Assembly (NCBI RefSeq): GCF_001597735.1
Contig: NZ_LUTS01000001.1
Location: 310,001-374,000 of the forward strand
Source of the DNA: Neptuniibacter pectenicola
GTDB taxonomy: Bacteria; Pseudomonadota; Gammaproteobacteria; Pseudomonadales; Balneatricaceae
Direction: 5' to 3'
Length of the DNA: 64,000 nucleotides
Numbering within the stretch: position 1 is the stretch's first letter; each line of letters opens with the position of its first letter. Both the position numbers and the translations under genes were made by a program. The notes under the pieces were generated by a model, which was not told where the DNA came from, made no database searches, and saw only the letters and a program-made list of their open reading frames with translations. Shown here one piece after another: positions 1,306-14,580 of the stretch.

Positions 1306-1388
1306 ACGGAGCCACATATCTGCGTATTGCCAGATAAGTGCGCTCCGTTGCGCTACTATAATTTTTTATGTACTAACAATGAGTACAT
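1306..1388 (-). promoter_or_regulatory. nasA 5' leader with two hairpins
   Basis: The predicted nasA leader (about 165 nt between the sigma-54 promoter and the start codon) holds two stems. One at 1368-1388 pairs ATGTACT with AGTACAT around a 7-nt loop. A longer one at 1306-1348 pairs ACGGAGC with GCTCCGT and, inside, TATCTG with CAGATA around an 8-nt loop. Neither is followed by a T-run in the nasA direction, and the AAAGGC loop found in the nrtA, narK and nirB leaders is absent. The structures are seen; their function is unknown. Confidence 0.5.
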
Positions 1389-1416: not shown

Positions 1417-1432
1417 AGCAAGCACTGTGCCA
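1417..1432 (-). promoter_or_regulatory. Sigma-54 promoter of nasA
   Basis: Read leftward, the sequence is TGGCACAGTGCTTGCT, an exact match to the TGGCAC-N5-TTGCW core with GG and GC ten bases apart. Transcription would start near 1406. This implies control by RpoN and an enhancer-binding protein, most likely NtrC, although no convincing paired NtrC site was identified. Confidence 0.85.
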
Positions 1433-1601: not shown

Positions 1602-2198
1602 GTGAATCGTTTAAATGTTTTACTGATAGATGACGAACCGGAAAGAGTCCAGGCGCTCAAAGAAGCGCTTCACTCACTAGGCCATCATGTCGTCTGCCAA
1701 CTACCCAATACTACCCATCTCAATAAGCGTGTTGAGGATACCCATCCAGACATCGTTATTATCGATATGGATTCGCCTAATCGAGACACACTCGAAAGTA
1801 TGTCGACGATGAGCAAAAACAATCCAAGACCTATCGTTTTTTTCGCTGAGCAGCAAAATGATCGTAAAACGATGTCTGATGCCATTAATGCGGGCGTCAG
1901 TGCTTACATATCGGACGGGCTACAGCCCGACCGGGTAAAAGCGATTATGGATACCGCTATTGCTCATTTCGATGCCCATAGCTCACTGCGCGCAGAACTC
2001 GAAAAAGCAAAAACCCAACTGGCTGACAGGAAGGTGATCGAAAGAGCCAAAGGCATGTTAATGAAGCATCAAGGGTGCGATGAAAAACAAGCATTTGAAA
2101 CACTTCGTAAGCTCGCCATGGATCGCGGTCAAAAGCTACCCGATGTCGCCCAGAGCGTTATAGATGTTCTGGAACTAACGAACGGCCTGAGCAAGTAG
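1602..2198 (+). CDS. nasT: NasT nitrate-responsive ANTAR antiterminator
   Basis: This is a 198-residue protein starting at GTG. Residues 1-120 form a receiver-like domain with the acidic pair D10/D11 and D55 at the phosphoacceptor position. Residues about 130-195 are an ANTAR RNA-binding domain (LADRKVIERAKGMLMKHQGCDEKQAFETLRKLA, split: LADRKVIERAKGM then KHQGCDEKQAFETLRK). Known NasT proteins bind two-hairpin leader RNAs and prevent intrinsic termination in nitrate assimilation operons, and are held inactive by NasS until nitrate binds. The next gene is nasS, 17 nt downstream, in the usual order. Three leaders of matching structure follow at 3542, 7114 and 10741. The GTG start is the only initiator fitting the receiver N-terminus. 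Confidence 0.93.
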   Translation: MNRLNVLLIDDEPERVQALKEALHSLGHHVVCQLPNTTHLNKRVEDTHPDIVIIDMDSPNRDTLESMSTMSKNNPRPIVFFAEQQNDRKTMSDAINAGVSAYISDGLQPDRVKAIMDTAIAHFDAHSSLRAELEKAKTQLADRKVIERAKGMLMKHQGCDEKQAFETLRKLAMDRGQKLPDVAQSVIDVLELTNGLSK

Positions 2199-2215: not shown

Positions 2216-3244
2216 ATGTCAGCACCACTGACACTTGAAAAAAACAACCTGAAGCTCGGTTTTGTCGCGCTCTTAGATTGCGCACCTTTAGTTGTCGCCC
2301 GAGAAAAAGGCTTTTTCAAAAAACACGGCCTCAACGTCGTTTTATGCAAAGAATCATCTTGGGCCTCGATACGCGATAAAGTAAGCTTTGGCCTGTACGA
2401 TGGCGCACATATGCTTGCCCCGATGCCACTGGCATCTACGCTTGGCTTAAACGGCAACAAAACACCGATGCTAACAGCCCTTGCACTGAGCCAAAACGGC
2501 ACCGCCATCACCCTGTCCCTCGAGTTTTACACCCTCTTATCTAAATCAATCGCTGACTGGAAAGACACGAGCAGTGTCGGTGCAGAGTTTAAAAAGCAGG
2601 TAAAAAACAGCAAGGTAAAACCGGTTATCGCAACCGTCTACCCCTATTCAAATCACCACTACCTGCTTCGCTATTGGTTAGAACAACAGGGTATTAATGC
2701 CGAAACGGATGTCCAACTGATCGCTGCGCCTCCCACACACATGATTCCTAGCTTATCTAATGGCGCGATTGATGGTTACTGCGTAGGCGAACCTTGGAAC
2801 AGCCTAGCCTTAATTCAACAAATAGGCGGCTTACTAACCACAGGGCATGAAATATGGGGAGCCCATATGGAGAAAGTCCTTGGGGTCACTCAAGAATGGG
2901 CCAACGCCCACCCGAATAGCCATAAAGCACTGGTTAACGCCCTATACGAAGCATGCCAATGGGCTGAAGATAGTGCGAATAAGGAGGAACTATTCCAACT
3001 CCTCGCACTTCCACCTTATCTCGATCAAGCAGCCACACAGCTCGCCAATTACACTCCACCTCTTGCGATGGAACAACATTTCGCGGGCAAGCACGTGAAT
3101 GTTCCCGACCCGAAGCAGGGCGAGTTTCTTCTGGGACAGATGTTAGACTGCGGGCAACTCTCAGACACAGACAACCCTGCCGATTTTGCAACCATTAGCC
3201 GTACAGTTTACCGCCAAGACCTCTTTCAAAAATGGGTTAGCTAA
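2216..3244 (+). CDS. nasS: NasS nitrate sensor
   Basis: The 342-residue protein belongs to the NrtA/CmpA nitrate-binding family and resembles the nrtA product encoded just downstream (shared LKLGFVALLDCAPLVVA-type start, [19 protein letters not shown]). Unlike NrtA it has no signal peptide and is over 100 residues shorter, so it should stay in the cytoplasm. In characterised systems NasS sequesters NasT without nitrate and releases it when nitrate binds. It lies 17 nt after nasT with AGAGAAGAGGA as ribosome-binding site, so the pair is one transcription unit. The mechanism is taken from the family; the lack of a secretion signal is seen directly. Confidence 0.93.
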   Translation: MSAPLTLEKNNLKLGFVALLDCAPLVVAREKGFFKKHGLNVVLCKESSWASIRDKVSFGLYDGAHMLAPMPLASTLGLNGNKTPMLTALALSQNGTAITLSLEFYTLLSKSIADWKDTSSVGAEFKKQVKNSKVKPVIATVYPYSNHHYLLRYWLEQQGINAETDVQLIAAPPTHMIPSLSNGAIDGYCVGEPWNSLALIQQIGGLLTTGHEIWGAHMEKVLGVTQEWANAHPNSHKALVNALYEACQWAEDSANKEELFQLLALPPYLDQAATQLANYTPPLAMEQHFAGKHVNVPDPKQGEFLLGQMLDCGQLSDTDNPADFATISRTVYRQDLFQKWVS

Positions 3245-3472: not shown

Positions 3473-3488
3473 TGGCATAGGTAGTGCT
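3473..3488 (+). promoter_or_regulatory. Sigma-54 promoter of the nrtABD operon
   Basis: TGGCATAGGTAGTGCT has GG and GC separated by ten bases and differs from the consensus at the last base of the -24 box and first of the -12 box. It closely resembles the promoter before nirB (TGGCATACTACGTGCT). Predicted start is near 3500, giving a 150-nt leader. The preceding stretch from 3245 contains several GTGC/GCAC half-sites that might bind an activator, but no gene. Confidence 0.75.
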
Positions 3489-3541
3489 TTATAAATAACA
3501 AATGAGTCATTCAACGAAGAGTGCTCGATAAATATTAAAAG

Positions 3542-3630
3542 GGGCAGAAAAGCCCACCCGTTTATTTTATGGCAAAGGCGCCTTAACGAATCACAAGACT
3601 GTGATCACGTTAGGCGCCTTTTTTATTTTT
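3542..3630 (+). promoter_or_regulatory. NasT (ANTAR) antitermination leader with intrinsic terminator, before nrtA
   Basis: A first hairpin at 3542-3555 pairs GGGC with GCCC around a six-base loop AGAAAA. A second at 3568-3585 pairs GGC with GCC (flanked by TTA/TAA) around the six-base loop AAAGGC. This second loop lies inside the 5' arm of a strong terminator: AAGGCGCC at 3575 pairs with GGCGCCTT ending at 3620, with an inner stem ATCACA/TGTGAT, followed by TTTTTTATTTTT. Two hexaloop hairpins, the second excluding a terminator, is the known ANTAR target layout. The A at loop position 1 and G at position 4 of AAAGGC also fit that family. Confidence 0.85.
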
Positions 3631-3650
3631 CAAGATTGGAGAAGCCAACC

Positions 3651-5030
3651 ATGCTTAAAAAGAAAACTGCTCTACTAAGCAAAATTATCAGTAGTACGGT
3701 GTTAGCCGCCGCTCTCATTACAGCCCCTGCATGGGCAGCCATCGGCGAGCCTGAAAAGGAAGATTTAAAATTCGGCTTTATTAAACTAACTGATATGGCC
3801 CCTCTCGCAATTGCTTACGAAAAAGGTTTTTTCGAGGATGAAGGCCTCTACGTCACTTTAGAAGCCCAAGCCAACTGGAAGGTACTTTTAGATCGCGTTA
3901 TTGACGGTCAGCTAGATGGCGCTCATATGCTTGCAGGTCAACCTTTAGGCGCAACCATTGGATTTGGTACTCAGTCCCACATTATCACGGCGTTTAGTAT
4001 GGACCTTAATGGTAACGCCATCACCGTTTCCAATGACATTTGGGATCAGATGAAGCCGTACGTACCAAAAGGTCCCGACGGTAAACCCGTTCACCCCATT
4101 AAAGCGGACGCGTTAAAGCCTATTGTCGATAAATATAAAGATGAAGGTAAGCCTTTTAATATGGGCATGGTATTCCCTGTATCCACCCATAACTATGAAC
4201 TCCGTTATTGGTTAGCGGCAGGTGGTATTCACCCGGGTTATTATGCGCCTCATAACGGCGATACATCTGGCACAATCAATGCCGATGCACTCTTATCCGT
4301 TACACCACCACCTCAGATGCCCGCCACAATGGAGGCCGGCACGATCTACGGCTATTGTGTAGGTGAACCGTGGAACCAGCAGGCTGTTTTTAAAGGGATC
4401 GGCGTACCTGTTGTTACCGATTATGAGATCTGGAAAAACAACCCCGAGAAAGTGTTTGGTGTCTCTAAAGGCTGGGCTGACGAAAACCCCAATACTCACT
4501 TGCGTGTAGTCAAGGCGATGATCCGTGCTGCTAAATGGTTAGATGACAACAACAATGCCAACCGTCCCGAAGCGGTGAAGATCTTATCCAAATCCGATTA
4601 TGTGGGTGCCGATTATGATGTTATCGCTAACTCCATGACAGGTACCTTTGAATATGAGAAAGGTGATAAACGCCAAGTACCTGATTTCAACGTATTCTTC
4701 CGCTATAACGCAACATACCCATACTACTCAGATGCAATCTGGTACCTAACCCAGATGCGCCGTTGGGGACAAATTGCTGAGCCTAAATCAGATAAGTGGT
4801 TTATGGATATCGCTAAGAAAGTTTACCGCCCAGATATCTACGCGATTGCCGCGAAAGAACTCATCGAGGAAGGCAAAATGACCGCGGATATGTTCCCTGA
4901 TTTTGTGACTGAAGATGGCTACAAAGCACCGCAAACGCACTTTATCGATAACATCACGTTTGATGGCAAACAACCTAACGCCTACCTAGAAAAATTCTCA
5001 ATCGGTCTGAAGCCAGATCAAACACTTTGA
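3651..5030 (+). CDS. nrtA: NrtA periplasmic nitrate-binding protein of ABC transporter
   Basis: The 459-residue protein starts at ATG 3651, 9 nt after GGAG; an upstream in-frame TTG at 3636 overlaps that ribosome-binding site and is rejected. The first 30 residues are a Sec signal peptide (KKK, hydrophobic core, APAWA-A). The rest matches the NrtA/CmpA solute-binding family, with [18 protein letters not shown], the nitrate-pocket segment [19 protein letters not shown] and [13 protein letters not shown]. It delivers nitrate (possibly nitrite) to NrtB. It is the first gene after the sigma-54 promoter and the NasT leader. An intercistronic hairpin separates it from nrtB, which would favour higher expression of the binding protein. 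Confidence 0.95.
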
Positions 5031-5042
5031 TCTAACAACAAA

Positions 5043-5063
5043 GCCCCTCTGCACCAGAGGGGC
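5043..5063 (+). repeat. Intercistronic hairpin between nrtA and nrtB
   Basis: GCCCCTCTG pairs perfectly with CAGAGGGGC around a 3-nt loop. No T-run follows, so it is unlikely to end transcription fully. Such stems after the first gene of binding-protein operons often stabilise the upstream message; that role is inferred here. Confidence 0.6.
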
Positions 5064-5089
5064 AACAGATCAACGGAAGGTAATACGTC

Positions 5090-6076
5090 ATGAGTAATAT
5101 TTTAGCCACAATGGGCCTAAGCCGCTTTATTGAAAACCCTAAAGCAAACTTCAGTCAGCTGGGAAAGTCTTTACTGATACCGCTAATTGGTTTGTTAATT
5201 TTCTTATTCATTTGGGAGATCGGGGCCAAAAGCGTCCACACTTCGCTAGGCACCTTCCCCGGTCCTGCGGCGGTTTATCAACAATCGATTACCTTAATAG
5301 AGGAACATAAAGCGGAGCGAGCGAAAGAGGTTAAATTCCACGAGCGCCAAGAGCTACGCAATGCAAAGAAACTCGAAAAAAATCCTGACGCTACAGTAAA
5401 AGTGCGTCCATACACCGGTAAACCAACCTTTTTTGATCAGATTTTAACAAGCCTGATCACCGTGCTTGCAGGCTTCATTATCGCCTCACTGATTGCTATT
5501 CCGGCGGGAATACTCATCGGTTTAAATGGCACGCTCTACTCCGCCTTTAACCCACTGATTCAGCTGTTTAAACCCGTCTCACCACTGGCCTGGTTGCCCT
5601 TAGTAACAATGGTTGTCAGTGCGGTATACGTCAGTAAAGACCCGATGTTTGCGAAGTCATTTATCACCTCATTGATCACTGTATCCCTGTGTAGCTTATG
5701 GCCAACACTCCTTAATACAGCGGTCGGCGTGTCGTCAATCAGTAAAGATCTACAAAACGTCTCTCAAGTACTTCGCCTTAATTGGCTTACCCATATCATC
5801 AAGATCGTTCTGCCATCCGCCATCCCAATGATGTTTACCGGCCTACGTTTATCACTCGGTATCGCATGGATGGTCCTTATTGCAGCAGAGATGCTGGCCC
5901 AAAACCCTGGCCTTGGTAAGTTTGTTTGGGATGAGTTCCAAAACGGTAGCTCCAACTCCCTTGGCCGAATCATGGTGGCCGTACTCATTATTGGACTGAT
6001 CGGATTTTTACTGGACCGTTGCATGCTGTTTTTACAGCGCAAAATGTCTTGGGATAAAACAGTAATACTTCGCTAA
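5090..6076 (+). CDS. nrtB: NrtB nitrate ABC transporter permease
   Basis: A 328-residue inner-membrane protein of the NitT/TauT/NrtB permease family. It has one N-terminal membrane segment (about 27-47), then a highly charged stretch (about residues 65-115, rich in Lys and Glu) and the binding-protein-dependent transport domain with five membrane helices from about 120. The coupling-helix region reads EMLAQNPGLGKFVWDEF. The charged extramembrane insertion between the first and second helices is longer than in short members of the family. Its stop codon is followed at once by the next gene. It forms the nitrate channel for NrtA and NrtD. Confidence 0.92.
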   Translation: MSNILATMGLSRFIENPKANFSQLGKSLLIPLIGLLIFLFIWEIGAKSVHTSLGTFPGPAAVYQQSITLIEEHKAERAKEVKFHERQELRNAKKLEKNPDATVKVRPYTGKPTFFDQILTSLITVLAGFIIASLIAIPAGILIGLNGTLYSAFNPLIQLFKPVSPLAWLPLVTMVVSAVYVSKDPMFAKSFITSLITVSLCSLWPTLLNTAVGVSSISKDLQNVSQVLRLNWLTHIIKIVLPSAIPMMFTGLRLSLGIAWMVLIAAEMLAQNPGLGKFVWDEFQNGSSNSLGRIMVAVLIIGLIGFLLDRCMLFLQRKMSWDKTVILR

Positions 6077-6105
6077 TGAGCGACGTTAGAGAAAGGATAA
6101 TTATT

Positions 6106-6954
6106 ATGACTCAGCCTCCTAAACATTTAGAGTTAACAAAAGTTGATATCGATTTCCCAACCCCTAACGGCCCTTTTAAAGCGCTTCAGGATATCAACCT
6201 CACCATTAACAAAGGGGAGTTTGTCTCGTTAATTGGTCACTCCGGTTGCGGTAAGTCCACAGTTCTGAATATTGTAGCGGGCCTTTATCAAGCCACCAGC
6301 GGCGGCTGTTTATTGGACGGAAAAGAGGTAAATGCCCCCGGCCCAGAACGCGCTGTTGTTTTTCAAAACCACTCCTTACTGCCGTGGTTAAGCGCCTATG
6401 AAAACGTAGAACTTGCCGTAAAACAGGTCTTTGGCCGCTCAAAAAGCAAAGCTGAGATGCGAGAATGGATAGAACATAACTTAGCCCTCGTCCATATGGA
6501 TCATGCCATGGATAAGCGCCCTGATGAGATATCAGGGGGGATGAAGCAGCGTGTCGGTATCGCACGCGCCCTTGCAATGGAACCCACTGTTATGTTGATG
6601 GATGAACCTTTTGGTGCCTTAGATGCGCTCACACGTGCCCATCTACAGGACTCACTTATGGAGATCCAAAAAGATCTAAATAACACCGTTATTATGATCA
6701 CCCATGATGTGGATGAAGCGGTACTCCTATCCGATCGCATTGTGATGATGACTAATGGCCCTGCCGCCACCGTCGGCGAGATACTAAATATTGACCTCCC
6801 CCGCCCACGCAACCGTATTGCGTTAGCGGACGATCCTAAATATAACCACTACCGCCATGAAGTGCTGACCTTCCTGTATGAAAAACAGCGCACCCCCGAC
6901 AGCATCCCTAAAAAAAAGGAGGCTAAGTTAAAGGTGGCACAAGATATGCAATAG
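6106..6954 (+). CDS. nrtD: Nitrate ABC transporter ATP-binding protein
   Basis: The 282-residue ATPase has Walker A GHSGCGKST, signature ISGGMKQRVGIARAL, Walker B VMLMDEPFGALDA and the switch His in MITHDVDEAV. It is closest to the NrtD/NasD/TauB-type ATPases; there is no fused binding-protein domain like that of cyanobacterial NrtC. ATG 6106 is chosen because AAAGGA lies upstream at a workable distance; ATG 6076, directly after the nrtB stop, lacks a ribosome-binding site, though translational coupling could make it usable (292 residues). It powers NrtB. The last 20 residues are Lys-rich and unlike the core family. Confidence 0.92.
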   Translation: MTQPPKHLELTKVDIDFPTPNGPFKALQDINLTINKGEFVSLIGHSGCGKSTVLNIVAGLYQATSGGCLLDGKEVNAPGPERAVVFQNHSLLPWLSAYENVELAVKQVFGRSKSKAEMREWIEHNLALVHMDHAMDKRPDEISGGMKQRVGIARALAMEPTVMLMDEPFGALDALTRAHLQDSLMEIQKDLNNTVIMITHDVDEAVLLSDRIVMMTNGPAATVGEILNIDLPRPRNRIALADDPKYNHYRHEVLTFLYEKQRTPDSIPKKKEAKLKVAQDMQ

Positions 6955-7113
6955 GATTCACCAGCAAAAGGAAAACGCGAGGAAAAAGCAGCCTAAGGTC
7001 CGTATATCTCTATTCAAAGGCGAATAAAGGTAAATCGGCGGACCAAATAAGTGCGCAACTCTGCACTCAGGCTCAATCGACGCACCAATAGATAGCAAAA
7101 AACATAAACAGCT

Positions 7114-7180
7114 TGAACAAAGGCGTTCATACCGTCCCCCTACACTATCAGAGGGGACGTGTAGAACGCCTTTTTTGTTT
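7114..7180 (+). promoter_or_regulatory. NasT (ANTAR) antitermination leader with intrinsic terminator, before narK
   Basis: TGAAC pairs with GTTCA around the hexaloop AAAGGC (7119-7124). The same bases start the terminator arm AAGGCGTTC, which pairs with GAACGCCTT (7164-7172) and continues inside as CGTCCCC/GGGGACG, followed by TTTTTTGTTTT. The two folds exclude each other. An upstream hairpin near 7050 (AGTGC/GCACT) could be the first hairpin but does not show a clean A1/G4 loop. No sigma-54 promoter is visible between nrtD and narK, so this appears to be an attenuator inside the operon. Confidence 0.82.
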
Positions 7181-7212
7181 TAACACCTATAACGATAATT
7201 GAGGCCTATAAT

Positions 7213-8682
7213 ATGAGTGATAGTGGCAAGCTAACTCTCTTCTCCTTCAGCGGAAAAATGAAGATTCTACATTTAAGCTGGATGGCGTTTTTCATCACCT
7301 TTTTTGTGTGGTTTAACCATGCCCCTTTACTTGGCGCTATCGCGGGATCTTTAGGGCTAACGAACGCAGAAATTAAAACCTTACTGATTTTAAACGTTGC
7401 ACTGACCATCCCCGCTCGAATTATTATCGGCATGCTCACAGACAAGTATGGCCCACGGATTACATACACCGCCCTCCTCTCCATTGCCAGTATCCCCTGC
7501 TTCATGTTTGCCCTATCAACTGATTTCGCGCAAGCCGCCGTATCCCGTTTTTTACTCGGCTTTATCGGCGCAGGGTTTGTTATCGGTATTCGTATGGTGA
7601 GTGAGTGGTTCCCTGCGAACGAACTCGGCACAGCTGAAGGCTTATACGGCGGTTGGGGTAACTTTGGCTCCGCTGCAGCAGCTATGCTACTACCCACCTT
7701 AGTCGTGATCTTTGGGGGCGACGATGGCTGGCGCTATGCGGTCGGCCTAACCGGCTTAATGAGCTTGCTCTTTAGTGTGATCTGGTACAAAAATGTAACC
7801 GATACGCCAAAAGGCTCAACCTATTTTAAACCTAAGAAAATAGGCGGCATGGAGGTTACTAGCACCAGTGATTTCATCTTAATGATCATCATGAAGATCC
7901 CACTCTATGCGGCTCTCTCTTTGCTCACATGGAAGCTTTCACCAGCAGGGGTATCGATCTTAACGGATACGGCCGCACTCGCTATATACCTCACCTTAGC
8001 CGCTATTTTTATCTATGACTGCTACAGTGCTTATCGTATTAACAAAACCATCTTTACCCAGCCCGTTCCCGAATTAGAGCGCTACAAATTTAAGCAAGTC
8101 GCAGTATTAAATATCTTGTACTTTGCCACCTTTGGTTCAGAACTTGCGGTTATCTCTATGCTGCCCCTCTTCTTTGCCGACGTATTTTCATTAGATATGG
8201 TGTATGCCGGTTTGCTTGCGTCCGCTTATGCGTTCATGAACCTGATGTCACGCCCTGGAGGCGGTTGGATCAGTGACCGTTTCGGCCGTAGAAAAACACT
8301 ATTAATTTTAACCGCAGGTTTAGCCGCAGGTTATGCGGTAATGTCGTTAATCGATAGCAGCTGGCCACTCTTCCTCGCCGTTGCCGCTGCCATGGCGTGC
8401 TCCTTCTTCGTTCAAGCAGGTGAAGGCGCAGTCTTTGCGGTCGTACCTTTAATAAAGCGCCGTCTAACGGGGCAAATTGCGGGTATGACAGGGGCTTACG
8501 GAAATGTTGGCGCCGTCTTCTATCTAACCGTGTTATCTTTAGTTGAGTACTCAACCTTTTTTACCGTGATTGCGGTAACAGCGGTCATTGGCTTTATCAC
8601 CCTGCTTTTCTTAGAAGAGCCGAAAGGGCATATGGCTGAGGTCAATGAAGATGGTACGGTAGAACTCATTAAAGTAAGTTAA
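7213..8682 (+). CDS. narK: NarK-type major facilitator nitrate/nitrite transporter
   Basis: This 489-residue polytopic protein has about 12 membrane helices and the nitrate-porter signatures GGWGNFGSAAAAM in helix 5 and GMTGAYGNVGAVFY in helix 11. The family's substrate-contacting Arg is in GIRMVSEWFPA, and the MFS loop motif DKYGPR lies between helices 2 and 3. It would import nitrate or exchange it for nitrite across the inner membrane. GAGG sits 8 nt before the ATG. It follows the ABC transporter genes but has its own NasT attenuator, so the cell encodes two uptake routes under the same nitrate signal. Which route is dominant cannot be told from sequence. Confidence 0.93.
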   Translation: MSDSGKLTLFSFSGKMKILHLSWMAFFITFFVWFNHAPLLGAIAGSLGLTNAEIKTLLILNVALTIPARIIIGMLTDKYGPRITYTALLSIASIPCFMFALSTDFAQAAVSRFLLGFIGAGFVIGIRMVSEWFPANELGTAEGLYGGWGNFGSAAAAMLLPTLVVIFGGDDGWRYAVGLTGLMSLLFSVIWYKNVTDTPKGSTYFKPKKIGGMEVTSTSDFILMIIMKIPLYAALSLLTWKLSPAGVSILTDTAALAIYLTLAAIFIYDCYSAYRINKTIFTQPVPELERYKFKQVAVLNILYFATFGSELAVISMLPLFFADVFSLDMVYAGLLASAYAFMNLMSRPGGGWISDRFGRRKTLLILTAGLAAGYAVMSLIDSSWPLFLAVAAAMACSFFVQAGEGAVFAVVPLIKRRLTGQIAGMTGAYGNVGAVFYLTVLSLVEYSTFFTVIAVTAVIGFITLLFLEEPKGHMAEVNEDGTVELIKVS

Positions 8683-8746
8683 CCATGTTAAGGCCTAACG
8701 CGTTATCAACACTCACTTCAGTGCACAGGCCTGACCCTCAGCAAGC

Positions 8747-8772
8747 GGTGAACAATGGATCCATTGTTCACC
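8747..8772 (+). repeat. 26-bp perfect palindrome between narK and the kinase gene
   Basis: The arm GGTGAACAATGGA is followed directly by its reverse complement, making a perfect 26-bp palindrome 16 nt before the first possible start codon of the kinase gene. In RNA it would form a very tight stem. No T-run follows. It could be a processing stem, a partial terminator or a protein-binding site. Confidence 0.7.
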
Positions 8773-8794
8773 CTACGTTTAGGTAAGAGTGAAC

Positions 8795-10513
8795 ATGAGT
8801 AAGAAAACGCTAGCCTTACGTTTTGGTGGAAAATCCAGTGCGGGCAGAAAGAAAAAAAACCAAGATGCCTTTGCCGCCCATCTACCAAGCCATGCTGAGC
8901 TTGACTTTAAAGGCGGTGCGGCAGCTATTGCCGACGGCGTGAGCAGCTGCGAAGACTCTCATATTGCAAGCCAAACCAGCGTCACCAGTTTTATGCAGGA
9001 CTACTTCAGCACCCCCCATAGCTGGAGCGTAAAGAATTCCGTCTCCCGTGTATTAACCGCCTTGAACAGCTGGTTACACAAAGAAAACATTCAAAATAGC
9101 CGCGAAAAAGATAGCTTACTCTGCACCTTTTCCGCCTTAATTATCAAATCCAACACCCTGCATTGGTTCCACGTTGGCGATTCGCGGATTTACCATTTTC
9201 AAGCGGGTCAACTAGAGCAACTTACACAAGACCATGTCCGCAAAACAGGTGGAAAACACTACTTGTCTCGCGCCTTAGGGGGCGATCAACATTTAGACGT
9301 GGATTACGCAACCAGCGGTGTAAAAGAGGGCGACATGCTCTTAATGACCACCGATGGTATCCATGAGTTCCTCTCGAATCGCGACCTGCAAGCCATCCTT
9401 GCAGAACATTTCGACTCACCTGAAACCGCGGCACAACAATGCATTGATCTTGCCCTTGAGCGCGGTAGTGATGACAACCTGACTGCACTCATTACCTGCA
9501 TAGATCACCTGCCTTCAGAAACATTAGATGAAAGCCATGCGCGGCTGGCCCAATTGCCTATTCCTCCGGTCATGGCCATTGGTAACAAAATTGATGATTA
9601 CGAAGTGCTCGACATTATTTTTAGTGGCACCCGCAGCCATATGTACCTTGTTAAAGATACCGCTTCAGGGCAGCAATATGTGTTAAAAGCACCCTCGCTT
9701 CAATTCGCGGAAGACCCTCTCTACCTTGATGGTTTTATCCGAGAGGAGTGGGTAGGACAACGGATTGACCACCCCAATGTGATGAAAACCTTCCCTCCCC
9801 TGCGCGAAAAGCAGTACCTCTACTACTTAGGGGAACATATTCAGGGCATGAACCTACGCGAATGGATGAACGATAATCCAGCACCAAAGCTTGATGAAGT
9901 GCGGGATCTAACCAAACAGGTCATCCAAGGGCTACGAGCCTTCCAACGGGCCGACATGGTGCATCAAGACCTCAAGCCCGAAAACATCATGATCAACCAA
10001 GATGGGCGCATCAAGATTCTTGATTTTGGTACCGTGAAAATTGCGGGTATTGAGGAGATGAACTCCCCTCTCGATAAATCAATTCCCCAAGGTTCAATCA
10101 ACTATGTCGCCCCTGAGTACCTACTTGGCGAGGCCGGTAGTTTTCGCTCGGACCTGTTCTCTCTCGCGGTCATTGTGTATGAGATGATCACAGGTCATCT
10201 GCCTTACAAAGAGATGAAAACCAATAATATAACGCTTAAAAACTATGGCCAAATGCACTACACGCCGACACTCCATTACCGTAAAGGCGTGCCTTTATGG
10301 GTCGAAGGCTGCTTAAAAAAGGCGTTACAGCCAAACCCCCGCTTTAGATATGAAGCCCTATCTGAATTTTTACAAGATCTCACCCAGCCCAACCAAAGCC
10401 TTGAAGCCAAAATAAAACATCAGCCGATGCTAGAGAAAAACCCTATTCTCACGTGGCAGATGATCGCAGCACTGATGCTGATCCTTAACCTGATTCAACT
10501 CTTACTTAAATAG
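8795..10513 (+). CDS. Bifunctional PP2C-type phosphatase / Ser-Thr protein kinase, membrane anchored
   Basis: The protein has 572 residues from ATG 8795; GTG 8789 is equally near AGG and would add two. Residues about 5-240 are a PP2C phosphatase with the metal-binding Asp motifs ADGVSS, GDSRIYHF, TTDGIHEF and GSDDNLTA. Residues about 265-535 are a Hanks-type kinase with YVLKAPS (catalytic Lys), VHQDLKPENIMI, ILDFGTVK and YVAPEYLLGE. The usual HRD is HQD, so it is a non-RD kinase. A hydrophobic helix (WQMIAALMLILNLIQLLL) ends the protein. Similar fused proteins sit beside nirBD/nasA in pseudomonads; their target is unknown. It may tune the nitrate transporter or reductase by reversible phosphorylation, which is inference from position. 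Confidence 0.9.
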   Translation: MSKKTLALRFGGKSSAGRKKKNQDAFAAHLPSHAELDFKGGAAAIADGVSSCEDSHIASQTSVTSFMQDYFSTPHSWSVKNSVSRVLTALNSWLHKENIQNSREKDSLLCTFSALIIKSNTLHWFHVGDSRIYHFQAGQLEQLTQDHVRKTGGKHYLSRALGGDQHLDVDYATSGVKEGDMLLMTTDGIHEFLSNRDLQAILAEHFDSPETAAQQCIDLALERGSDDNLTALITCIDHLPSETLDESHARLAQLPIPPVMAIGNKIDDYEVLDIIFSGTRSHMYLVKDTASGQQYVLKAPSLQFAEDPLYLDGFIREEWVGQRIDHPNVMKTFPPLREKQYLYYLGEHIQGMNLREWMNDNPAPKLDEVRDLTKQVIQGLRAFQRADMVHQDLKPENIMINQDGRIKILDFGTVKIAGIEEMNSPLDKSIPQGSINYVAPEYLLGEAGSFRSDLFSLAVIVYEMITGHLPYKEMKTNNITLKNYGQMHYTPTLHYRKGVPLWVEGCLKKALQPNPRFRYEALSEFLQDLTQPNQSLEAKIKHQPMLEKNPILTWQMIAALMLILNLIQLLLK

Positions 10514-10667
10514 ACCGCGCGGCATACGCTGCCGCTCTTCAATCGCACCAAAACAGTTCGCATCAATGGGTACTTGCATCAAAACAAAGCCAAAACCCAT
10601 CAAAATACCACGTAACAACACCCCCAAAAACACAGCAACTCACTGAAATATAATAGATTTCAATAAA

Positions 10668-10683
10668 TGGCATACTACGTGCT
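10668..10683 (+). promoter_or_regulatory. Sigma-54 promoter of nirBD
   Basis: TGGCATACTACGTGCT shows GG-N10-GC and is nearly the twin of the nrtA promoter. Start near 10695 gives a leader that contains the NasT terminator. The gap from 10514 also holds a small stem after the kinase gene (GCGGCA/TGCCGC, 10519-10535) and otherwise no gene. Confidence 0.75.
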
Positions 10684-10740
10684 TATTAAAAACAATAACC
10701 ACTGTTATTTGTTTAATAGTCGTTATCACAACAAGCTCTG

Positions 10741-10805
10741 AGAACAAAGGCGTTCTACATCAACATGCTCATACATGTTGAATGTGAACGCCTTTTTTTA
10801 TTTTT
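10741..10805 (+). promoter_or_regulatory. NasT (ANTAR) antitermination leader with intrinsic terminator, before nirB
   Basis: AGAAC pairs with GTTCT around the hexaloop AAAGGC (10746-10751), the same loop as in the nrtA and narK leaders. Its 3' part is the start of a terminator stem, AAGGCGTTC with GAACGCCTT (10786-10794) and an inner CAACATG/CATGTTG stem, followed by TTTTTTTATTTTT. Upstream at about 10690-10712 AACAATAAC pairs with GTTATTTGTT (one bulged base), a candidate first hairpin. The ATG at 10765 lies inside the terminator stem and is not the nirB start. Confidence 0.85.
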
Positions 10806-10821
10806 GGGATTTAGGATCGTT

Positions 10822-13800
10822 ATGAAAAAACGTTTGGTCATCATTGGAAACGGAATGGCAACAGGTCGGTTACTGCAACGCCTTTTTGAGCGTGCGGACC
10901 ACTCACTTGATGTCACTGTTTTTAGCGAAGAGCCAGGCGGCAGTTATAACCGTGTCCTTTTATCAAACCTACTCAGTGGCGAGCTCGATCAGGATAAGGT
11001 CATAACCCTTCCTCCTGAATGGTACACAGAGCACGGGGTGACACTACACAGCCAAGACCCTGCGGTACAGATTGATCGTGCTAACAAAGTCATTATCAGC
11101 GCAGCCGGTGTCCACGTACATTACGACCTACTGGTTATTGCAACGGGTTCTTACCCTACGCCATTACCCGTAGATGGCGCTCAGTTAGACGGAGTGATGA
11201 GCTTTAGAACATTGAAAGATGTCGAGCGGATGAAACAGATCGCCAAAGAGAAAAAACAGGCGGTGGTGATTGGCGGTGGTTTCTTGGGCTTAGAAGCCGC
11301 AGAGGGGCTTCGCGCTCAAGGCATGGATGTCACCTTACTTCATCGCGGCAGCTACCTTCTCGACCATCAGTTAGATGACACCGCAGGCGAACTGTTACTT
11401 AACGCCCTTGAAGCACGCGGCCTTAAATTCCGTATAAAAGCGAACACACAAACCCTTCAAGGGAGCGACAGGGTTACATCCGTTCGCCTAACAACAGGTG
11501 AAATCCTACCGGCCGACCTTGTTGTAGCCGCCATCGGCGTAACACCAAATAAAGCACTCGCCAGCGATTCTGGACTCAAGTGCGAACGCGGCATTTTAGT
11601 CGATGCACAGATGAACACCAGTGATCCCGCGATCTACTCATTAGGGGAGTGCTGTCAGTTCGAATCATTTACTTATGGTTTAGTCGCCCCCATTTGGCAA
11701 CAGGCAGAGATTCTCGTTTCAAGTCTGCTTAACGAAGCCAACACATATAAAGAGGAAGCGGTCGCCACCCAGTTAAAAATCAGTGGTGTAGCGCTTTTTT
11801 CATGCGGTTCTCTACAGGATTCACCTGAAACAGAGACCATGATTTATCACGATATTCAACACAATGAATACAGAAAACTTTGGCTGAAAGATAACCGATT
11901 AGTCGGCGCCGTTTTATACGGTGATGTCCGTGAGGGACAGTGGTATTTCGATCAGCTAAAACAAAAAACTGATTTGAGTGCGAACAGACAACAACTGCTA
12001 TTTGGCAGTCCGTTCTGCTCTCAAGACACTCAAACACAAGACATGGGTATATCTTCTATGACTACTTCAACGGACTCTCAAAAAAAGCAGTTGGTCGTTA
12101 TTGGCAACGGTATGGTGGGTCACCACTTTATTGAAAATTTTGTTGCAAGCGAGACCTCTGACGAATATGACATTCATATTCTCGCCGAAGAATCGCGCGC
12201 CGCATACGACCGTGTTCACCTATCAGAATACTTTGGTGACTCAACCTATCAAGACCTTTGCCTTGTAGAAGATAACTTTTATGAAACACATGGCGTGCAA
12301 CTTCACTTGAGTGAAGGAGCGACGCAGATCGATCGCGATACAAAGCAGGTGATCACCGAGCAAACTAGCTACCCCTATGACAAGTTAGTCCTTGCTACCG
12401 GTTCATACCCTTTTGTCCCCCCCATTCCGGGAAATGACGGTGACGCCTGCTTTGTTTATCGCACCTTAGAGGATCTAGATAAAATTCAAGCCTGTGCGAA
12501 AGACGCAACCACCGGTGTCGTTGTTGGTGGTGGTTTATTAGGCTTAGAAGCCGCTAACGCGCTCAAATCTTTAGGGTTAAAAGCACATGTTGTAGAGTTT
12601 GCACCGCGCTTAATGCCCGTGCAATTAGATGAAGATGGCGGCGAACTTTTAAAGAAAAAAATAGAAGCCTTGGACGTAGATGTTCATTGCAACAAAGCCA
12701 CTTCAGAGATCGTCCCAGGTGAAGAGCATACCTACCGTATGAACTTCAGCGATGGCACGTTCTTAGAAACCGACCTAATCCTATTCTCTGCCGGTATCCG
12801 CCCTCAAGATGCCCTAGCGCGTAGCAGTGCTCTCACCATTGGCGAGCGCGGCGGCATTGTTGTTAACGATCACTGCCAAACCTCTGACGAAGATATTTTT
12901 GCCATCGGCGAATGTGCATTATGGAACAATCAAATTTTTGGTTTAGTGGCCCCCGGTTACACGATGGCAAAGACAGCCGTTGCAGCCATTATCGGTAACT
13001 TAGAAAACGATACCGCCTTTACCGGCGCGGATATGAGTACAAAACTGAAACTACTTGGTGTTGATGTAGGTTCGATTGGCGACGCTCATGGCAAAAACCC
13101 TGGCAGCCTAAGTTACCGTTACCTTGATGAAGATGAGCAAATTTATTCTCGCATTGTCGTATCTGAAGACCGAACAAAACTACTCGGTGCCGTACTGGTT
13201 GGAGATAACAGTAAATACGATACGCTCCTTCAATACGCGCTCAACGGCATTGATCTGCCCGAAAAGCCACAAACCTTAATTTTACCTTCATTCGATGGTG
13301 CTTCCGCACCCACATTAGGACCTGATGCACTGCCAGACGACGCCACAATTTGCTCTTGTTTAAACGTAACTAAAGGCCAAATCTGTTGCTCAATCGACGA
13401 AGGTGCGGCCTCTGTCGCTGATGTAAAAGAGGTCACTAAAGCCGCATCTGGCTGTGGTGGTTGTGCCGCTATGTTAAAAAACCTAGTTGACCATGAGCTT
13501 GAAAAACGAGGGGTTGAAGTCTGTAAAGATATCTGTGAACACTTTGCTTACACCCGTGAAGAGCTTTACCACATTGTCCGTGTCGAAGGGATTCGTAGCT
13601 TCTCTGATCTGCTTACTAAACATGGTAAAGGCTTAGGTTGTGAGATTTGTAAGCCTGCAGCGGGCTCTATTCTTGCTTCGTGCTGGAACGAGCATGTATT
13701 AGATGAGCCCCATGTCGGCTTACAAGATACCAACGATCGTTTTATGGCCAATATGCAAAAAGATGGCACTTACTCTATTGTCCCGCGTATTGCCGGTGGT

Positions 13801-14580
13801 GAAATCACCCCTGACAAACTAATCGTCTTAGGTCAGGTAGGTAAAAAATACAACTTATACACCAAGATTACCGGTGGCCAACGTGTCGATCTATTTGGCG
13901 CAAAACTACATGAGCTGCCACTGATCTGGAAAGAACTGATTGATGCGGGTTTTGAAACCGGTCATGCCTACGGCAAGTCACTTCGTACCGTTAAATCATG
14001 TGTCGGCAGTACCTGGTGCCGCTTCGGCGTGAAGGACAGCGCAAGCATGGCAATCGAGCTTGAGAATCGCTATAAGGGTCTACGCTCTCCTCACAAAATA
14101 AAATTTGCCGTATCCGGTTGTACCCGCGAATGTGCAGAAGCACAAAGTAAAGATATTGGTGTGATCGCCACCGAAAATGGCTGGAACCTTTATGTGTGCG
14201 GTAATGGCGGTATGAAACCTCGCCACGGAGATCTATTTGCTACTGACCTAGATGACGAGATGTTGGTTAAATATATCGACCGCGTACTGATGTTCTACGT
14301 AAAAACAGCCGACCGCCTACAGCGTACCTCTGTCTGGATGGAAAATTTGGAAGGCGGTTTAGACTACCTCAAAGAGGTGGTGCTAAATGACAAATTAAAT
14401 ATTGCGGCAGAACTGGAAGCACAAATGCAGCATGTTGTTGATACCTACCAATGTGAGTGGAAGACAACGCTGGGGGATGAAGACAAGTTGAAACAGTTCC
14501 GCAGCCTTGTAAATACGGAAGAACAAACAGATCCACAAATTGTACATATTATCGAACGCAATCAGGTTCGCCCTGTTTAA
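10822..14580 (+). CDS. nirB: Nitrite reductase large subunit NirB with an extra N-terminal flavoprotein module
   Basis: The 1252-residue protein is about 400 residues longer than typical NirB (E. coli, about 850). Residues 1-405 form a complete FAD/NAD(P)H oxidoreductase module (VIIGNGMATGR, VVIGGGFLGLEAAEGL). Residues 413-840 repeat it (VVIGNGMVGHHF, VVVGGGLLGLEAANAL). Then come a BFD-like [2Fe-2S] domain (C844, C846, C878, C881), a second Cys-rich segment (GLGCEICKP), and the siroheme/[4Fe-4S] domain with C1060, C1066, C1100 and C1104. The C-terminal part reduces nitrite to ammonium with NAD(P)H. The extra module resembles the NAD(P)H dehydrogenase that feeds assimilatory nitrate reductase, so it might serve NasA. 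No ribosome-binding site precedes the internal ATG 12058, which supports a true fusion. Start 10822 follows AGGA. Confidence 0.93.
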   Translation: MKKRLVIIGNGMATGRLLQRLFERADHSLDVTVFSEEPGGSYNRVLLSNLLSGELDQDKVITLPPEWYTEHGVTLHSQDPAVQIDRANKVIISAAGVHVHYDLLVIATGSYPTPLPVDGAQLDGVMSFRTLKDVERMKQIAKEKKQAVVIGGGFLGLEAAEGLRAQGMDVTLLHRGSYLLDHQLDDTAGELLLNALEARGLKFRIKANTQTLQGSDRVTSVRLTTGEILPADLVVAAIGVTPNKALASDSGLKCERGILVDAQMNTSDPAIYSLGECCQFESFTYGLVAPIWQQAEILVSSLLNEANTYKEEAVATQLKISGVALFSCGSLQDSPETETMIYHDIQHNEYRKLWLKDNRLVGAVLYGDVREGQWYFDQLKQKTDLSANRQQLLFGSPFCSQDTQTQDMGISSMTTSTDSQKKQLVVIGNGMVGHHFIENFVASETSDEYDIHILAEESRAAYDRVHLSEYFGDSTYQDLCLVEDNFYETHGVQLHLSEGATQIDRDTKQVITEQTSYPYDKLVLATGSYPFVPPIPGNDGDACFVYRTLEDLDKIQACAKDATTGVVVGGGLLGLEAANALKSLGLKAHVVEFAPRLMPVQLDEDGGELLKKKIEALDVDVHCNKATSEIVPGEEHTYRMNFSDGTFLETDLILFSAGIRPQDALARSSALTIGERGGIVVNDHCQTSDEDIFAIGECALWNNQIFGLVAPGYTMAKTAVAAIIGNLENDTAFTGADMSTKLKLLGVDVGSIGDAHGKNPGSLSYRYLDEDEQIYSRIVVSEDRTKLLGAVLVGDNSKYDTLLQYALNGIDLPEKPQTLILPSFDGASAPTLGPDALPDDATICSCLNVTKGQICCSIDEGAASVADVKEVTKAASGCGGCAAMLKNLVDHELEKRGVEVCKDICEHFAYTREELYHIVRVEGIRSFSDLLTKHGKGLGCEICKPAAGSILASCWNEHVLDEPHVGLQDTNDRFMANMQKDGTYSIVPRIAGGEITPDKLIVLGQVGKKYNLYTKITGGQRVDLFGAKLHELPLIWKELIDAGFETGHAYGKSLRTVKSCVGSTWCRFGVKDSASMAIELENRYKGLRSPHKIKFAVSGCTRECAEAQSKDIGVIATENGWNLYVCGNGGMKPRHGDLFATDLDDEMLVKYIDRVLMFYVKTADRLQRTSVWMENLEGGLDYLKEVVLNDKLNIAAELEAQMQHVVDTYQCEWKTTLGDEDKLKQFRSLVNTEEQTDPQIVHIIERNQVRPV

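Follow-up and report, generated by a model that had tools for sequence, protein, structure and literature searches.

Why do three leaders of a single nitrate assimilation cluster present the same six-base hairpin loop? The question is raised by a stretch of 64,000 nucleotides from Neptuniibacter pectenicola (contig NZ_LUTS01000001.1, positions 310,001 to 374,000; referred to as the window, 64 kb of a 3.63-Mb genome), in which small stems around the loop AAAGGC precede nrtA, narK and nirB. An earlier note, made from the sequence alone, had read these as antitermination leaders of the NasT type in which each loop begins an intrinsic terminator's 5' arm, and had regarded the identical loop in unrelated stems as a local, copied recognition element. 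As judged from the folds and comparisons described here, the leaders of nrtA, narK and nirB are very probably NasT-dependent transcription attenuators.

Hexaloops and terminators in the window

A hairpin was designated P2 when its hexaloop had A at position 1 and G at position 4 (A1/G4), was closed by a C:G pair and lay on the 5' arm of a terminator. All three leaders contain such a hairpin, and the AAAGGC loops were found where the earlier note had placed them:

3571..3582, + strand: nrtA P2 hairpin GGC-AAAGGC-GCC, with a stem of 3 bp only
3574..3631, + strand: nrtA intrinsic terminator with U tract, excludes P2
7114..7129, + strand: narK P2 hairpin UGAAC-AAAGGC-GUUCA
7119..7175, + strand: narK intrinsic terminator, excludes P2
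10741..10756, + strand: nirB P2 hairpin AGAAC-AAAGGC-GUUCU, the sole C:G-closed A1/G4 hexaloop found in the nirB leader
10746..10797, + strand: nirB intrinsic terminator, excludes P2

A search of both strands of the 64 kb for a terminator whose 5' foot carries an A1/G4 hexaloop closed by C:G gave exactly three sites, and all three loops are AAAGGC. In 60 dinucleotide shuffles of the window, 1 such site was obtained altogether and 0 with AAAGGC. P2 and terminator are mutually exclusive because bases are common to both. The minimum free energy folds, in which the terminator is present, have -45.3 (nrtA), -68.6 (narK) and -37.0 kcal/mol (nirB), versus -35.1, -59.4 and -24.4 kcal/mol when P2 is enforced. 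Since the terminator-bearing fold is more stable by 9.2-12.6 kcal/mol, transcription likely terminates by default, and P2 must be kept open by some factor. The claim that each loop doubles as the foot of a terminator excluding it was therefore borne out. The stems are not all three unrelated, as had been stated; this description fails for narK and nirB, which have the 14-nt core GAACAAAGGCGTTC in common.

The cluster order is nasA (minus strand, incomplete at the window edge), nasT, nasS, nrtA, nrtB, nrtC, narK, a PP2C-kinase fusion and nirB. The two regulatory genes are:

1602..2198, + strand: nasT, receiver plus ANTAR protein (Pfam PF03861, 5.4e-23; PF00072, 5.6e-14)
2216..3244, + strand: nasS, NMT1-like nitrate/nitrite sensor (PF13379, 4e-78), adjoining nasT

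The name nasS follows the protein family and is presumably correct. Here nasT and nasS stand side by side at nitrate assimilation genes, as is expected for NasS-NasT regulation. The assignment of NasT as an ANTAR protein held, and NasT is the only such protein found genome-wide (one match, 4.0e-23). When NasT was compared with the RNA contacts of EutV, as listed in the available text of PMC8934654, R142, K143, K149, E160 and M172 were retained, whereas K147 is replaced by R and Y164 by F.

Conservation among relatives

NasT was present in 51 of the 116 genomes of the family set, source genome included, and the loci of 40 others were fetched. In these 40 loci plus the window, P2 with a terminator was found in 30/33 nrtA, 20/21 narK, 10/29 nirB and 20/35 nasA leaders, and in 1/41 regions upstream of nasT, the latter being probably spurious. 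Loop position 2, which was not demanded by the search, is A in 81/81 rows. Loop position 3 faces the terminator 3' arm as A-U in 51 rows, U-A in 6 (one of them the doubtful nasT row), G-C in 3 and C-G in 1. Among 80 named loci, P2 with a terminator was recovered for 54/78 nrtA, 17/43 nirB, 12/38 nasA and 2/11 narK leaders.

For a count independent of P2, terminators were chosen by their A..G.. foot only. Of 128 leaders, 97 had a P2 of at least 3 bp; permuting the 5' arms gave 44.7 (largest of 2000 permutations, 56). By eye, about 19 of the 31 rows scored as lacking P2 were one base out of register (ATGGCG for AATGGC), and the shifted loop ATGGCA occurs in 5 of the 97 counted rows. The strict narK/nirB pattern was found in 33/116 family genomes (9/16 genera) and the strict nrtA pattern in 23/116. 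Combined, the strict patterns occur in 38/78 ANTAR-bearing versus 0/38 ANTAR-less family genomes (reversed-pattern controls, 0), a co-occurrence which is confounded by common ancestry and by the presence of nitrate genes.

Five genomes (G029, G041, G042, G044 and G103) had no NasT match at E 1e-15, yet contain the P2-terminator pattern and an ANTAR domain, which in all except G044 lies within a longer frame (438-506 aa). These longer proteins are perhaps NasR-type, and more than one kind of ANTAR regulator may use the RNA element.

The sites could also be ordinary terminators whose AAAGGCG..CGCCUUU foot resembles a hexaloop by chance, NasT not being involved. Such a foot is not rare: AAAGGCG..CGCCTTTTT has 5 forward matches genome-wide (reversed control, 0 forward and 1 reverse). 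Of the two that fall outside the cluster, one resembles, by eye, an ordinary terminator and the other coding sequence. In the class sample, the looser CAAAGGCG..CGCCTTTTT matches 43 of 274 genomes. However, the two outside matches have no P2 stem, which all three leaders have, and the P2 arms track the terminator arms across relatives. Moreover, the strict patterns are confined to ANTAR-bearing genomes of the family, and all three sites are at nitrate genes. When any third loop base plus the closing C was allowed (CAANGGCG..CGCCNTTTT), the genome yielded one match besides the three leaders. Chance resemblance is, in our judgement, highly improbable.

Several results weigh against the attenuator reading. 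P2 with a terminator occurs at just 10 of the 29 nirB and 20 of the 35 nasA rows, although many of the nirB rows lacking it may lie inside an operon. Loop position 3 is unpaired in 20/81 rows, 16 of them nasA. A1 and G4 were built into the searches and their constancy is not independent evidence; nor are related genomes independent samples. Because the reversed control of the looser pattern matched 11 genomes, the loop foot alone is only weakly specific outside the family. The nasA leader of the window fails the P2-plus-terminator test and has no clear terminator. Finally, no A1/G4 hexaloop lies within 2-25 nt 5' of P2 in the nrtA, narK and nirB leaders, and the dual-hexaloop definition in the literature, with its linker of 2-25 nt, fits none of the three.

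Recurrence of the AAAGGC loop

Among 156 non-redundant P2 leaders, AAAGGC was the commonest loop (67), followed by AAUGGC (20), AACGAA (14) and AACGGC (13). AAUGGC, AACGGC and AAGGGC substitute for AAAGGC in relatives, each leader being conserved at its own gene. In the consensus of Rfam RF00625 (Pseudomonas small RNA P11), the hairpin GGAC-AAAGGC-GUCC is accompanied by an AACGAU loop and a sigma-54-like site. Since AAAGGC is the commonest loop in relatives and present in the P11 consensus, the loop is, on this comparison, widespread and not local, and the idea of a local, copied element finds no support. Recent copying of one element within the cluster would agree with the 14-nt core of narK and nirB. 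Yet the identical loop stands at identical genes in other genera and in P11, the narK and nirB leaders are dissimilar by eye beyond the 14 nt, and relatives carry the substituted loops. Local copying of the loop was rejected on its conservation in other genera, and recent spread of one element through the cluster is highly improbable. The simplest reason for the identical loop appears to be a dual duty, in which A1 and G4 are for the protein and AAAGGC with the following G is the terminator foot facing CGCCUUU; it is this duty, not local copying, by which the same six bases would recur.

The P11 model matched the nrtA leader with 34.2 bits (E 1.3e-5), the genome's only match among the matches listed. 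As the gathering score is 70, the nrtA leader is not counted as a member of P11, which is filed as a small RNA gene and not as an attenuator. The narK and nirB leaders were unmatched by this model in the Rfam scan. The scan gave four matches for the window, none of them to an ANTAR RNA family, P11 being the nearest model; the weak matches to sok, mir-299 and mir-971 were far below gathering and were taken as chance. A gathering scan of 16 fetched loci gave 0 matches. In the class sample, 13/274 genomes (source genome included) matched P11 at E ≤ 0.01, 1 of them above the cut-off. According to tblastn, 12 of the 13 P11 loci adjoin a nitrate assimilation gene or a relative of one (nirB, nrtA/nasS-like, nasA), several of these neighbours matching at only 31-45 % identity; 1/13 loci had no match. 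It is thus probable that P11 represents leaders of the NasT type and not a free-standing small RNA, which would tidy the Rfam annotation. A search of the open literature for P11 and NasT together gave no relevant paper.

Distance to a second hexaloop

The available texts on ANTAR dual-hexaloop antiterminators (EutV/eutP, NasR/nasF, AmiR/amiE; Ramesh 2012, PMC3369931; Walshe 2022, PMC8934654) describe features that are also found in the window, namely an A1/G4 hexaloop, a C:G closing pair, a P2 over the terminator 5' arm, an ANTAR regulator and nitrogen genes. The linker between the upstream hexaloop, P1, and P2 differs. Linkers of 5-12 nt are given for eut (PMC3369931) and of 2-25 nt in an actinobacterial survey (PMC8164766), and a 20-nt extension abolished EutV action (PMC8934654); the window has 47 nt (nrtA), 87 nt (narK) or no partner loop (nirB). 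The hairpins upstream of P2 are:

3508..3523, + strand: nrtA upstream A1/G4 hexaloop (P1-like) CAUUC-AACGAA-GAGUG, 47 nt 5' of P2
3542..3555, + strand: nrtA middle hairpin GGGC-AGAAAA-GCCC, without G4, 15 nt 5' of P2
7011..7026, + strand: narK upstream hexaloop UAUUC-AAAGGC-GAAUA, the fourth AAAGGC hairpin, 87 nt 5' of P2
10695..10726, + strand: nirB upstream hairpin with loop UUUGUU (G4, no A1), 14 nt 5' of P2

P2 is the constant part of these leaders, and the distant or absent partner hexaloop is the unusual feature.

For nrtA, 9 of the 11 genus leaders were aligned; L043 and L044, whose upstream hairpin has no A1/G4 loop, were left out. In these nine the upstream loop C[AAxGxx]G is invariant, and 2 of 3 stem pairs change on both sides. 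The number of cells changed on both sides was 9 versus 2.9 in shuffles (reached by 0/500), and the cells paired and the covariation score were likewise above the shuffles (0/500). The number of pairs changed on both sides (2) was not, being reached by 165/500. By a looser criterion an upstream A1/G4 loop is present in 8/11 genus leaders, by a stricter one in 5/11.

Upstream loops were counted in 128 of the 156 leaders, the other 28 having no recognised sigma-54-like site or exceeding 200 nt. A1/G4 loops numbered 34 in 64 leaders at nrtA (0.8 in shuffles; 35 leaders without any), 13 in 17 at narK (0.63 expected; 6 without any), 3 in 18 at nirB (0.16 expected; 15 without any) and 0 in 29 at nasA (0.32 expected). 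With looser criteria, the A1/G4 loops of nirB (3 versus 0.68) and nasA (4 versus 1.43) equal but do not exceed their largest shuffles of 3 and 4, respectively. Leaders without a second hexaloop recur among relatives. In genus g6, only 21-24 nt separate the inferred transcription start from P2 at nrtA in 6/6 leaders, and the upstream loop is absent. Vibrio linkers are 6 nt in three loci, with 20 nt, 43 nt or none in other Vibrio; Marinomonas linkers are 10-11 nt in 4/6 loci, and 28 and 46 nt in the remaining two. Two or more upstream loops were found in 5/64 nrtA leaders. L090 has three A1/G4 hexaloops 5' of nrtA, and in the narK leader of L060 the upstream hexaloop (about -178 to -133) has its own terminator, an arrangement of tandem attenuators.

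Folding of the linker, at nrtA by a stem enclosing the middle hairpin, could bring a distant P1 beside P2, so that the classical two-loop rule holds. The nrtA P1 with its covarying stem and the enrichment of upstream loops at nrtA and narK speak for this, and in a fold of the isolated region the linker stem closes beside P2. The stem is, however, lost in the full-length fold of the window nrtA leader, and the proposal leaves nirB uncovered, where 8/9 genus leaders have no upstream loop, and likewise nasA. We consider linker folding a real possibility that falls a little short of an even chance.

For nirB, the upstream hairpin might be a relaxed P1 (with the loop UUUGUU in the window and UGUGUU in L037, a near relative), of which NasT reads G4 alone. 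G4 is the sole base-specific contact in the EutV structure, according to the available text of PMC8934654. The hairpin is predicted 5' of P2 in 9/9 folded genus leaders (weak in L039), that of L042 can be drawn with an A1/G4 loop, AGCGUU, and G4 loops without A1 number 7 in 18 nirB leaders versus 1.75 in shuffles (largest of 60 shuffles, 4). Yet just two of these 7 loops, those of the window and its near relative L037, lie in the upstream hairpin; the other 5 are located in L044, L051 and L106, and no six-base G4 loop occurs in L038, L039, L040, L041 and L043. A relaxed P1 is possible but rather unlikely. Linker folding and relaxed P1 are both variants within the attenuator reading, and their probabilities do not compete with the one given to it.

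We tentatively propose, as somewhat less probable than linker folding, that single-hexaloop antiterminators exist here: at nirB (in relatives, nasA) NasT would use one loop and no recruiting P1, and the upstream loops of nrtA and narK would tune strength. In the open-access ANTAR literature, as far as its available text goes, no single-hexaloop ANTAR terminator leader was found.

Putative promoters, the nasA leader and neighbouring genes

Four sigma-54-like promoters were called with a consensus which we take to be the usual one:

3473..3487, + strand: nrtA, TGGCATAGGTAGTGC
6935..6949, + strand: narK, inside the end of nrtC
10668..10682, + strand: nirB
1418..1432, - strand: nasA, TGGCACAGTGCTTGC

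The site [TC]GG[CT]N8TGC is present in 32/33 nrtA leaders of the family set. Because the pattern count in the window is not above chance (12 versus 10.2), the calls are based on position and on the relatives.

1340..1353, - strand: nasA leader hexaloop GCGC-AACGGA-GCGC (A1/G4), overlapping a strong hairpin without U tract

This hexaloop (1353-1340) was absent from the earlier note, as were the fourth AAAGGC hairpin (7011-7026) and the second nrtA hexaloop (3508-3523). The nasA leader of the window is possibly a degraded or Rho-type attenuator. In the corresponding leader region (1241-1400 in the window), the genus relatives L039, L040 and L042 have, by eye, a more terminator-like tail.

Between narK and nirB, a PP2C phosphatase-Ser/Thr kinase fusion (8789-10513) is encoded, which stays after narK in many relatives. 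The nirB gene (10822-14580) encodes a protein of 1252 aa; standard NirB begins near residue 420 and the N-terminal half is a rubredoxin-reductase-like flavoprotein. In many relatives, the match to NirB is limited to residues 416 onward.

Proposed mechanism and its meaning

NasT-type antitermination, as proposed in the earlier note, is well supported by the A1/G4 loops with C:G closure, the overlap with terminators, the adjacent and sole ANTAR gene, the covariation and the co-occurrence. The hairpins, terminators, covariation and co-occurrence are direct results of the computation, and NasT binding, promoter use and readthrough at the leaders are inferred. Under nitrogen limitation, the putative sigma-54 promoters would start each transcript. 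Without nitrate, NasS would retain NasT and the leader would fold into the terminator. With nitrate present, freed NasT would grip the AAAGGC hexaloop of the emerging P2, which occupies the terminator 5' foot; the terminator could then not close, and readthrough into nrtABC, narK and nirB would follow. The loop would work twice, with A1 and G4 offered to NasT and the whole AAAGGC plus G pairing with CGCCUUU.

NasS-NasT leaders of Pseudomonas aeruginosa nirB and of Azotobacter are reportedly known, being cited in other papers. In Paracoccus, NasS was shown to hold NasT in the absence of nitrate (PMC3795266, available text), and the available SELEX (systematic evolution of ligands by exponential enrichment) data for NasR (PMC7496416) agree with C:G closure and A1/G4. 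The leaders described in the available texts for Paracoccus nasA (PMC3795266) and Bradyrhizobium (PMC6759348) have the same regulator pair, targets and proposed mechanism. In contrast, the window has several attenuated units per cluster, each with a sigma-54-like promoter, and its leader anatomy was derived solely by comparing sequences.

According to the current model, ANTAR antitermination requires two closely spaced hexaloops, and the authors of that model request bioinformatics on single-hexaloop sites (PMC8934654, available text). With one NasT in one genome and leaders which are apparently single-loop or widely spaced, the cluster is a natural set in which the need for a second loop and its spacing can be tested, and nirB-like leaders offer a direct test of the two-hexaloop requirement. 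If single-loop action proves true, it would contradict the current EutV model, as NasT would have to act through one loop within the time that the moving polymerase leaves it. In that case evolution could adjust the nitrate response through how many hexaloops a leader carries, which in relatives ranges from one to three.

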